Positions 12,336 to 16,161 of a stretch of 64,000 bases of DNA are shown here, piece by piece. How positions within the stretch are numbered: the first letter of the stretch is position 1; each line of letters opens with the position of its first letter. This stretch comes from Terriglobia bacterium (GTDB lineage: Bacteria; Acidobacteriota; Terriglobia; JAIQFV01): positions 1 through 64,000 of the forward strand of contig JAIQFV010000018.1 in NCBI GenBank assembly GCA_020073085.1, written 5' to 3'. Under the pieces are notes generated by a model. That model was given only the letters and a program-made list of their open reading frames with translations. It ran no database searches and had not been told where the DNA came from. The translations under genes were made by a program, and so were the position numbers.

Positions 12336-13637
12336 ATGCCCGCACATCTTGAATGCATCACTTGCCATCAACACTATCCTATCCACCGCGCCCTCTACCA
12401 GTGCAGCCAGTGCAACGATCTCCTGGATGTCGTTTACTCTTTCGGTTCACCCGATCCGAAGAGACTCAAAGTCGACTTCCTGAATCGCAAGCTCTCGCCG
12501 ACGCCGCAGGACCAGAGCGGGGTTTGGCGGTTCCGGGAGCTGCTGCCGTTCCTGGATCGCTTCGACTCCGTCATTTCGCTGCGGGAGGGCAACACCCCGC
12601 TGTGGGAAGTCCCTCGGGCCGCGAAGGAGGCCGGGCTGCAGCATCTTGCCGTGAAACATCAGGGGATGAACCCGACCGGCTCCTTCAAGGACAACGGCAT
12701 GACGACGGCGGTCACGCAGGCGAAGCTGCTCGGGGCCCGGACCGTTCTCTGCGCGAGCACCGGCAACACCTCTGCCTCCATGGCGGCGTATGCCGCGCGG
12801 GCCGACATGCGGGCGGTCGTCCTGATCCCCGAGGGGCAAATCGCACGGGGCAAGCTGGCCCAGGCGATTGATTATGGGGCCACGGTCGTTCAAATCCGGG
12901 GAGATTTTGATCACGCCATGCAGCTCGTCCGGGAGCTGTCGCAGGAGGGCGCCGCCTACCTCCTGAATTCGGTCAACCCATTCCGGATTGAAGGCCAGAA
13001 GACGATCGTCATTGAGCTCATGGAGCAGCGCGGGTGGCGCCCTCCGGACCGCATCGTCCTGCCGGCCGGCAACCTGGGAAATTGCTCCGCCTTCGGAAAA
13101 GCGCTGCGCGAGCTGTTTGATTTGAAGCTGATCAACCGCCTTCCCAAATTGACGCTGGTCCAGGCGGTCGGGGCCAATCCCTTTGCCCGGATGGTCCGGT
13201 CGGGGGATACGAATCTGATTCCCATGAAGGCCGACACCCTGGCGACCGCCATTAAAATCGGCAGTCCGGTTTCCTGGAAGAAAGCTCTCCGGGCGCTGGA
13301 GTGGACCCAAGGCGATGTGGTCGAAGTGACGGAAGGCGAGATTGCTGATGCCCGTGCTCTGCTGGCCCGGGATGGCGTTGGGTGCGAGCCGGCGTCGGCC
13401 TCGACCCTCGCAGCGATCCTGAAGTTATCGCGCGAGAAGAAGTTGATGTCGAGCGAAGAAGTCGTGGGAATTCTGACGGGCCATCACCTCAAGGATCCCG
13501 AATACATTCTGGATTACCACGAGGGGAAATTGAGCCATCAAGGCGCCCTCATTCCTGCACACTATCAAAATACGCTCCAAACGGTCGCCGCTGAAACTCA
13601 AGCGCTCAAGAGACTCCTGTTCGCCCATGACAAATGA
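12336..13637 (+). CDS. thrC: Threonine synthase
   Basis: 433 residues from ATG 12336, preceded by AGGAAA. Converts O-phospho-L-homoserine to threonine with PLP. The PLP lysine is Lys118 in TGSFKDNG, and the phosphate/PLP loop is STGNTSASMAAYAA. The N-terminus carries a zinc-ribbon-like pair of CxxC motifs (CITC, CSQC), found in one branch of ThrC. The upstream in-frame extension to 12249 lacks the ribbon start and looks non-coding. It overlaps the next gene by 11 bases. No other threonine-pathway gene is nearby. Confidence 0.93.
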   Translation: MPAHLECITCHQHYPIHRALYQCSQCNDLLDVVYSFGSPDPKRLKVDFLNRKLSPTPQDQSGVWRFRELLPFLDRFDSVISLREGNTPLWEVPRAAKEAGLQHLAVKHQGMNPTGSFKDNGMTTAVTQAKLLGARTVLCASTGNTSASMAAYAARADMRAVVLIPEGQIARGKLAQAIDYGATVVQIRGDFDHAMQLVRELSQEGAAYLLNSVNPFRIEGQKTIVIELMEQRGWRPPDRIVLPAGNLGNCSAFGKALRELFDLKLINRLPKLTLVQAVGANPFARMVRSGDTNLIPMKADTLATAIKIGSPVSWKKALRALEWTQGDVVEVTEGEIADARALLARDGVGCEPASASTLAAILKLSREKKLMSSEEVVGILTGHHLKDPEYILDYHEGKLSHQGALIPAHYQNTLQTVAAETQALKRLLFAHDK

Positions 13638-15180
13638 CCTGATGGAAGGACCCTTTCCGCTTTCCCCGGGATTTCGTGTTGTCTTTGGGGTCTTGATGGC
13701 CGCAGCCCTCCTGCTGGTCTGGATTCCAAAATTTCTTCCGCTGACCGATTATCCCGAGCACCTCCTGGTCATCCAGGTTCTCTCTCACTACCAGGATCCC
13801 CAGTATCAATATGCGCGGGATTACACGGTACAGCTGGGCAATGTTCCTTATGTGTCCATCTACCTGATTGGGATGTGGCTGAATCGATTCCTGCCCATCT
13901 TCACCGTGGGAAAGATTCTCCTCTCGCTTTACATTATTCTCACTCCCCTCAGCATCCTGGCCTATGTACGTTCGCTCCGGAATGTTTCACCCTGGTCTTC
14001 CCTGCTGTCTTTCGTCTTCCTGTTCAATCTCTTCTATTATCTCGGCTCGTTGAACTTTCTGATTTCGATTCCTCTTTCCTTCTTTGTTCTGGCGCTGGTT
14101 CTCACCCTTTTGAACCCGCAGGTACCTTCTGCAAACATCCCCAACCCGCCAACCTCATTCTTCGAGCAGTACTGGCGGGTCGCTGCCCTCGTGCTGGTCT
14201 CCACCGCATTGTTCTACACCCACATTGTTTCCTATGCGGCGGTCATTTTGGCGGCTGCCGGCTTGTGCCTGGCCGCATATTTACGCCGTCGGCCAGTCAC
14301 GCTCACCGCCGTCGCGCTGGTTCCTTCGGTCCTGCTCGCCGGATTCTCAGTTTACAGAGCGCTGGGCGCCTCAGCGTCAGGACTTGGTGCAAGCTGGCTT
14401 CCCTTTTCTTCACGTCTCTTTGACCTGCTTCAGCCTTTCCTGATCTACCGGGACGATTACTTTCACCGGACCGTTCTCGATCGGCTGAGTCTGCCATTGG
14501 TATTTCTGGCGGCCTTATGGCTGGTCACTGGCATGTGGTCCTTTCTTAAGATAAGAAACCGCGATCGCTTGGACGCGTGGCTTATTCTCCTTTTCTTGCT
14601 TCTTGCCGCACTCGTGTTTCCGTCTCAAATCCCTTCTGCTTCCTTCGCCCATCGCTTGTCGATCCTTGTCCTTCTCAGCGTCTGCGGGATCCTTCCGAGG
14701 CAATTCGGAGAGCATCTCCTCACCAAGGTCACCCTTTTGGCTCTGACGGTTTTTGTTTTCACATTAACGGCTTGGAGGACAAGTGAGTTTAATCGCGAGA
14801 TGAAACCGTTTCTCAACGCGGTGGCGCGGATGCAGCCCGATGCCCGCGTCCTGCCGCTCATCCAGAACCTCCACTCTTCCCATCTTCAAACATATTGTTT
14901 CTTACACATCACGAACTATTATCATCTTGAGAAACAGGGGGGGAACCCTTATCTCCTGTTTCGGAACATGCCCCAGATCCCCGTCCATTACCGGTTTCTG
15001 CTCCAGCTGCCGTCCGTTGGCTCTTTTGAACCTGACCTCTTCGACTGGAACACGCACCACGACCATTACCGATATTTTTTGGCCCGGGACGCGAGCGCCC
15101 GGGTCATGGGTCAGCTCCGGTCTCATTCCCGGCTGATTTATGAGTCCCAGGGGTGGGCCCTCTTCGAGGCGCAGGACTGA
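13627..15180 (+). CDS. Polytopic membrane protein, GT-C glycosyltransferase-like
   Basis: 517 residues with around ten to twelve hydrophobic segments. After the first segment comes a loop with LPLTDYPEHL, an acidic loop position typical of GT-C lipid-linked-sugar glycosyltransferases and related proteins. The soluble C-terminal part (about 400-517) has no motif I recognise. Its start overlaps thrC by 11 bases, suggesting translational coupling, although no functional link is evident. Function as a glycosyltransferase is inferred from topology and should be held loosely. Confidence 0.65.
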   Translation: MTNDLMEGPFPLSPGFRVVFGVLMAAALLLVWIPKFLPLTDYPEHLLVIQVLSHYQDPQYQYARDYTVQLGNVPYVSIYLIGMWLNRFLPIFTVGKILLSLYIILTPLSILAYVRSLRNVSPWSSLLSFVFLFNLFYYLGSLNFLISIPLSFFVLALVLTLLNPQVPSANIPNPPTSFFEQYWRVAALVLVSTALFYTHIVSYAAVILAAAGLCLAAYLRRRPVTLTAVALVPSVLLAGFSVYRALGASASGLGASWLPFSSRLFDLLQPFLIYRDDYFHRTVLDRLSLPLVFLAALWLVTGMWSFLKIRNRDRLDAWLILLFLLLAALVFPSQIPSASFAHRLSILVLLSVCGILPRQFGEHLLTKVTLLALTVFVFTLTAWRTSEFNREMKPFLNAVARMQPDARVLPLIQNLHSSHLQTYCFLHITNYYHLEKQGGNPYLLFRNMPQIPVHYRFLLQLPSVGSFEPDLFDWNTHHDHYRYFLARDASARVMGQLRSHSRLIYESQGWALFEAQD

Positions 15181-15327: not shown

Positions 15328-16161
15328 CTAGGCTTTTTTGAAGAACCTTCCCACCGCAGCACTGAACGACTTTTTTTCTTCCGGCTTGCCCATCGCCGAG
15401 TTCACGAGATTTTCGGTCCGGAGCGGATTGGCGGCCGGGAGTGTTCGAAGCTTGAATTTCGTCTCCTTGAGCGCCGTGAGTGTACTGAGACAGTAGAGGC
15501 AATCCGCGGCATGACCTTCCGCCTTTTCCTTCTCAGCCCAGAGGGCCTGTCCGTCAATGATTTTGTTGAACAGCCTGACCGGGACACAGTCTTCGGTTTT
15601 TTCGTTATCAATTTCAACAAGGAGATTCGGAGGGATAGAAAGAATTCGTTCCTCTGAGGAAAGTGGCAATGTCATCTCGGCCCCACGCTCGAGGGCTTTC
15701 ACCAGAACGGGTTCTGCCGCCTCGGGCCGCATCGACAGGATTTGGACCACCTCTTTGAGGGGGATCTGACACATACGAAACCAGACGAGTTGCTGATGCA
15801 GCAGCGGGAATCCCTTGAGGAGTTCTGCCAACTGGTCACGAGTGAGCGGCGGCGACGTCGGACCATCCACATACACAGCCCGGCCCCGGCACAATCTCAA
15901 GGTGTACACCCGCCACTCGCGAAGGAACTCGCGCTCCCACGTGCCCTGGAAGGTTTTCAGAAGGCCATCCGGCTCGACGATTGAGGATTTCAGCAGCTCG
16001 ACGAGGATCTGATCGCGATGGGGACGCAAGACCCGGAAGTAGTGATCGATCCAGAACTCGGCCAGGGACAAGTAGCTTTGGACCAGTTGTCGGCAGGCGC
16101 CGCGATTCCCCTCGCGACAGCCTTCGAGCATCTCGAGAAATGTAGATCCTTGCCGGAGCAT
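15328..16161 (-). CDS. Sigma-like protein with C-terminal HxxxCxxC zinc-finger motif
   Basis: 277 residues, no membrane segment. The N-terminal part (about 10-45: CREGNRGACRQLVQSYL) reads like a divergent sigma-70 region 2. The middle (about 130-180: LKGFPLLHQQLVWF, IPLKEVVQILSM) reads like region 4, with a helix-turn-helix at 'PLKEVVQILSMRPEA'. Near residue 225 the motif GHAADCLYC has the HxxxCxxC spacing of ZAS/zf-HC2 anti-sigma domains. The two halves normally occur in separate proteins. I infer a degenerate ECF sigma factor fused to an anti-sigma-like domain; an unrelated helical protein is the alternative. Start may instead be the Met at 16131. Confidence 0.5.
   Translation of the reverse strand: MLRQGSTFLEMLEGCREGNRGACRQLVQSYLSLAEFWIDHYFRVLRPHRDQILVELLKSSIVEPDGLLKTFQGTWEREFLREWRVYTLRLCRGRAVYVDGPTSPPLTRDQLAELLKGFPLLHQQLVWFRMCQIPLKEVVQILSMRPEAAEPVLVKALERGAEMTLPLSSEERILSIPPNLLVEIDNEKTEDCVPVRLFNKIIDGQALWAEKEKAEGHAADCLYCLSTLTALKETKFKLRTLPAANPLRTENLVNSAMGKPEEKKSFSAAVGRFFKKA

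Follow-up and report, generated by a model that had tools for sequence, protein, structure and literature searches.

Fusions of an extracytoplasmic function (ECF) sigma factor to a zinc-binding anti-sigma (ZAS) domain are described for the groups ECF48, ECF52 and ECF53, which are reported from Actinobacteria and all with transmembrane parts (PMC8999054, PMC5826349). One review ascribes a structural role to the zinc of most ZAS domains, gives redox sensing as shown for RsrA, and presents PhyR as a sigma mimic (PMC4598750). Sigma/anti-sigma fusions are usually regarded as membrane-tethered switches, whereas the protein family examined here is soluble and single-copy. Its representative, P0001, is encoded in a stretch of 64,000 nucleotides (the window; positions 1 to 64,000 of contig JAIQFV010000018.1, assembly GCA_020073085.1) from a Terriglobia soil bacterium of the Acidobacteriota, a phylum for which no soluble sigma/ZAS fusion was found in the literature searched. 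The host genome (5.79 Mb, 98.7% complete) holds one copy of full-length P0001. The open reading frame lies where the original prediction, made from the letters of the window, had placed it, and its 277-residue product is, as judged from sequence, a soluble sigma/anti-sigma fusion with sigma2-, sigma4- and ZAS-like domains in that order:

15328–16161, reverse strand: gene for P0001, the predicted sigma/ZAS fusion protein (open reading frame, 277 amino acids; ATG at 16161, stop at 15328–15330).
15877–16137, reverse strand: sigma2-like region 2 domain, residues ~9–95, with near-invariant E76-R77-x-F79 and R84 (hhalign against ECF sets; column counts).
15667–15849, reverse strand: sigma4-like region 4 domain, residues ~105–165, with a helix-turn-helix-like end (hhalign; Sigma70_r4_2 in 4 of 44 members).
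15442–15606, reverse strand: ZAS (zf-HC2-like) domain, residues ~186–240, with C192, G204, W208, H217, C221, C224 and E233 (hhalign, column counts, Pfam and NCBIfam matches of members).

With a threshold as loose as E 10, the P0001 sequence by itself matched no model in Pfam or NCBIfam, and a scan of genome contigs with it gave one relative. A first profile, built from six sequences, found further members in the class Terriglobia and one outside the class (genome G432), the phylum scan covering 297 genomes, part of them within the class. The alignment A2 contains 44 of the 48 members then known (L089 and the truncated L107, L108 and L110 were omitted), and its profile found strong matches (E no worse than 5e-49) in 60 of the 399 class genomes sampled. 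Four further class genomes matched weakly (E 3e-10 to 9e-9); Pfam calls these proteins ordinary ECF sigma factors. Viral contigs yielded no relative, none of 27 pattern stretches being confirmed. The family is single-copy per genome, with G296 giving two pieces of one open frame, and grouping in a tree of the 61 members largely follows taxonomic family, so that descent of the fusion family is likely to have been mostly vertical.

The 44-member profile matches a set of 15 canonical ECF sigma factors (A4) over residues 9–171 (hhalign 98.0%, E 1.8e-13). Because the A4 set had been drawn from matches to the family profile, the comparison was repeated with 26 ECF sigma factors of the host genome picked by Pfam, again with a clear match (hhalign 96.7%, E 4e-10), whose score of 75.5 compares with 17.2 for the highest of 40 shuffles. 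Each domain was also recognisable separately, in the order sigma2 then sigma4 and above all shuffles: sigma2 scored 62.5 and 42.1 against the 15- and 26-member sets (shuffle maxima 16.0 and 18.4), and sigma4 41.0 and 44.7 (shuffle maxima 17.8 and 13.8). Comparisons of a domain with a non-matching target stayed at background level, and the C-terminal part does not match ECF sigma factors; in the comparison of sigma2 with ZAS one of 40 shuffles scored oddly (126.1); when the comparison was repeated with 60 shuffles, the highest score was 12.0. The region 2-like and region 4-like stretches proposed in the original prediction are thus confirmed. Among 25 open reading frames that match the family profile in part, 19 carry Sigma70_r2 and r4 and three carry zf-HC2. 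Matches of the profile in the PDB were all weak (E 0.0015 to 0.17), and were to sigma factors and to the PhyR sigma-like domain (2lfw, 4g97). Pfam Sigma70_r4_2 is found in 4 of the 44 members and Sigma70_r2 in none at E<=1, P0001 included. Standard sigma profiles therefore miss most members of the family, which implies that counts of regulators derived from sigma factors are too low, in Acidobacteriota at least.

The C-terminal part resembles ten zf-HC2 domains of the host genome (hhalign 91.6%, score 34.1; shuffle maximum 15.0). Ten of the 44 members, P0001 not among them, match Pfam zf-HC2, and 28 of the 44 match the RsrA model of NCBIfam (best E 4.5e-4). In P0001 the HxxxCxxC motif reads H217-AAD-C221-LY-C224 and is joined by a fourth, upstream candidate ligand, C192. 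Among the 61 members, Cys is found at position 192 in 56 and at positions 221 and 224 in 54 each, and His at position 217 in 55; the remainder is accounted for by five members with none of the four ligands and by two whose sequence breaks off at a contig end. The motif, complete in 54 of 61 members, is thus real and conserved, and this conservation rules out a chance motif.

Each of the 54 complete members outside one clade has all four ligands. The clade itself, of five members (L105, L106, L140, L141 and L145), forms one branch with support 100/99 and has none of them, the four having been replaced together. The rest of the ZAS domain is kept in these five: G204 and W208 are invariant in all 61 members, and E233 is present in all 59 that reach that position, the ligandless ones included. 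As the four ligands are kept together or lost together, C192, H217, C221 and C224 act as one site, and since a clade lives without them, the metal is dispensable to the family. G432, the member outside the class, keeps all four, which makes ligand loss in the clade the simpler reading. Such concerted loss fits a structural zinc. In PMC7406223, zinc-binding and zinc-free domains are described as intermixed within groups, suggesting structural zinc there, and soluble ZAS domains as enriched in zinc motifs (72%), some of them redox-sensing. The 54 complete members with four ligands and the five with none offer a natural contrast for structural versus sensory ZAS zinc. Two weak profile matches without a Pfam family were seen in one genus of another taxonomic family of the phylum. 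One (L040:1279-1971, forward strand, 231 amino acids, genome G305), more distant still from P0001, resembles the family around the ligand places but has no Cys at them, and is possibly a second ligandless lineage; the other is L041:1747-2385 (forward strand, genome G453).

The original prediction of a protein without a membrane segment was correct, as the highest 19-residue hydropathy mean in P0001 is 0.95 (range 0.51–1.60 over the 61 members). A membrane-bound fusion of ECF52 type was rejected on this ground. With sigma2-, sigma4- and ZAS-like domains in one soluble chain and a conserved zinc-type motif, a built-in inhibitor is the natural reading, and this portion of the proposed 'built-in, redox-sensitive inhibitor' is structurally plausible. 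The redox sensitivity that went with it is unproven, and is not supported, because most ZAS zinc is taken to be structural (PMC4598750) and five members have lost all ligands.

The sigma half itself departs from canonical ECF sigma factors. The D..Q motif of region 2.2 is a contact to core polymerase. Its glutamine is present in 36 of 41 canonical ECF sigma factors (the A4 set of 15 and the 26 of the host genome) and in none of the 61 family members, which have W (22), L (20), V (10) or others at the aligned position 53, with no neighbouring column that conserves Q. Net charge was compared for 58 of the 61 members, three truncated rows being left out. In regions 2.3–2.4 the family mean is -0.55 against +4.00 for the 41 canonical proteins (Mann-Whitney p 5e-17), and in sigma4 it is -0.97 against +3.07 (p 2e-12), p values that overstate independence because the sequences are related. 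What is near-invariant in the family is a different set of sigma2 residues (E76 in 59, R77 in 56, F79 in 59 and R84 in 57 of the 61). The sigma part of the fusion thus seems to be eroded, having lost the region 2.2 glutamine and, on the family mean, the basic charge of regions 2.3–2.4 and of sigma4. For the 'self-contained regulator' of the original prediction, a soluble sigma/ZAS unit in one chain holds up, while the case for an active sigma factor is weakened.

An orthologue, likewise of 277 amino acids and 73–74% identical, is present in another genome of the genus, and comparison of the two genes shows purifying selection (ratio of nonsynonymous to synonymous substitution rates, dN/dS, 0.28 overall, 0.17 in sigma2 and 0.36 in ZAS). 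Upstream lies a promoter-like element that is also seen in the alignment with the sister genome:

16217–16244, reverse strand: sigma-70-type promoter-like site TTGCAA-16-TACAAT, upstream of the P0001 gene, a pattern match only.

Given the loss of the region 2.2 glutamine and of basic charge, we favour a sigma mimic over a sigma factor that is still active. We give roughly even weight for and against the proposal that the sigma half of P0001 is no longer an ordinary promoter-recognising subunit of RNA polymerase and that the closed sigma/ZAS unit is a cytosolic protein-binding regulator, a sigma mimic as PhyR is. By this proposal, P0001 would derive from an ECF sigma factor to which a class I (ZAS) anti-sigma domain became joined in a single soluble chain. 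Class I anti-sigma domains are described as having a dual interface (PMC7406223). In known pairs helix 1 lies on sigma4 and helix 4 on sigma2, and the ZAS domain of P0001 would fold back between sigma2 and sigma4, its own fold presumably held by zinc. The sigma half would no longer serve RNA polymerase in promoter recognition, and the closed unit would open, or expose a surface, upon a signal. More tentatively, and with somewhat less than even confidence, the whole family may consist of 'retired' sigma factors, in which a sigma2-sigma4 module with its own anti-sigma domain attached no longer binds RNA polymerase or promoters and lives on as a self-contained signalling module, in one lineage without zinc.

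Several points weigh against the mimic. P0001 itself has a net charge of +3 in regions 2.3–2.4, within the canonical range, and its sigma4 charge is 0. For the helix-turn-helix of region 4.2 alone, charge in the family and in canonical proteins does not differ significantly (p 0.09), and divergent, non-canonical ECF sigma factors can remain functional. Gene context gives no partner, as there is no neighbour common to the whole family. There is no usable structure: AlphaFold2 models of P0001 reached a mean predicted local distance difference test score (pLDDT) of 35.3 with one sequence and 43.1 with two (P0001 and one relative), too poor to judge the fold, although both place helices at the positions of sigma2, sigma4 and ZAS helix 4. 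Finally, the mimic role is drawn purely by analogy with PhyR.

The best-surviving alternative is that P0001 is a working, auto-inhibited ECF sigma factor, in which the fused ZAS domain would keep both sigma domains blocked and would be opened by a signal in the cytosol, such as an oxidant, a metal or a protease. The domain order is that of the ECF48, ECF52 and ECF53 fusions, whose ZAS part is believed to inhibit them (PMC8999054), and this alternative would draw as well on the +3 charge of P0001 in regions 2.3–2.4, on the redox sensing ascribed to some zinc-motif-enriched soluble ZAS domains (PMC7406223), and on sigma2 being the most constrained part of P0001 between the sister genomes. Against it stand the missing region 2.2 glutamine, the non-basic mean charge and the absence of Sigma70_r2 in all 44 members, as well as the clade without zinc ligands; the conserved upstream element, which resembles a housekeeping promoter and not ECF auto-regulation, counts weakly in the same direction. 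We consider an auto-inhibited sigma factor unlikely, though it is the strongest competitor to the mimic.

Less probable still is an unusual anti-sigma factor, whose ZAS domain would act on a separate ECF sigma factor and whose sigma-like half would be regulatory or dimerising. The residues invariant in the family (G204, W208 and E233) do sit in the ZAS domain, and with 39 Sigma70_r2 matches against 14 zf-HC2 matches in the host genome possible targets exist. However, zf-HC2 proteins of this genome often adjoin an ECF gene and P0001 does not; no sigma gene adjoins it in the window, and none is common to the family loci. An operon with a cognate regulator was likewise rejected, as the P0001 gene has an ApbA/PanE-type gene on one side, divergently oriented, and on the other a convergent gene for a hydrophobic, probably membrane protein, and no neighbour is shared family-wide. 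The most frequent neighbour groups, at 17, 15, 15 and 13 of 48 loci, are confined almost wholly, on the map of these loci, to the taxonomic family f4. That P0001 is an unrelated helical protein resembling sigma and ZAS domains by chance is barely credible: in its favour are the lack of any Pfam or NCBIfam match to the P0001 sequence alone and AlphaFold2 models too poor to confirm a fold, but the three domain matches are in the right order, target-specific and well above 40 shuffles, and the ligands were lost in concert.

Other observations concern the surroundings of the gene. The convergent neighbour (13627–15180 of the window, forward strand) encodes a 517-residue hydrophobic, probably membrane protein without a Pfam match and adjoins the P0001 gene in the sister genome too. 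In L065–L088 and L110 we noted a secreted-looking protein of ~170–210 amino acids with QRPTLG-type repeats near its N terminus and no Pfam family; this QRPTLG-repeat protein lies ~0.8 kb upstream of the family gene in 15 of the 48 loci. In two taxonomic families, the secreted-type proteins encoded upstream are not the same protein. On the P0001 contig outside the window (G000:C18:89788-91988) is a short ZAS protein (L121, 126 amino acids) with no evident membrane segment; an ECF sigma gene lies ~2 kb away on the other strand, a spacing unusual for a sigma/anti-sigma pair. An Rfam scan of the window gave a tRNA as its sole match.

The ECF classification paper reportedly names extension-bearing ECF groups. 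Fifteen such groups are given as unstudied in PMC8999054, and the P0001 family may therefore already have a group number. Like ECF48, ECF52 (SCO4117 of Streptomyces coelicolor) and ECF53, P0001 appears to carry ECF sigma2-sigma4 followed by zf-HC2/ZAS in one chain; as described, those proteins have recognisable sigma domains, at least one transmembrane helix and long extensions, whereas P0001 is soluble, stops ~40 residues past the ZAS domain and has a sigma part below Pfam detection. The CorE and CorE2 proteins of Myxococcus xanthus (ECF44/ECF238) resemble P0001 in being soluble and in joining an ECF part to a C-terminal domain that contains Cys, and CorE is described as having no separate anti-sigma factor; four sigma factors of this type, with a cysteine-rich domain (CRD), are reported from Acidobacteria (PMC3107203). 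A CorE-type CRD was rejected for P0001 on its Cys pattern: CorE is described with a four-Cys CRD (C..C, C.C) and a linker CXC, while P0001 has a C-H-C-C site of ZAS type and no linker CXC (PMC3107203, PMC8999054). The soluble ZAS anti-sigma factors RsrA and ChrR have the HxxxCxxC motif and fourth upstream ligand seen in P0001; each is a protein in its own right and binds a sigma factor made as another chain, in contrast to the P0001 fusion. In PhyR, a sigma2-sigma4-like module no longer acts as a sigma factor, and the NCBIfam PhyR model matches 2 of the 44 family members. PhyR carries a receiver domain, for which none of the 44 has a Pfam match, and the P0001 family carries a ZAS domain instead. 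If its sigma half is dead, the P0001 family would be an independent case of sigma mimicry, and a 'retired' sigma/ZAS family would represent a second route to it, independent of PhyR.
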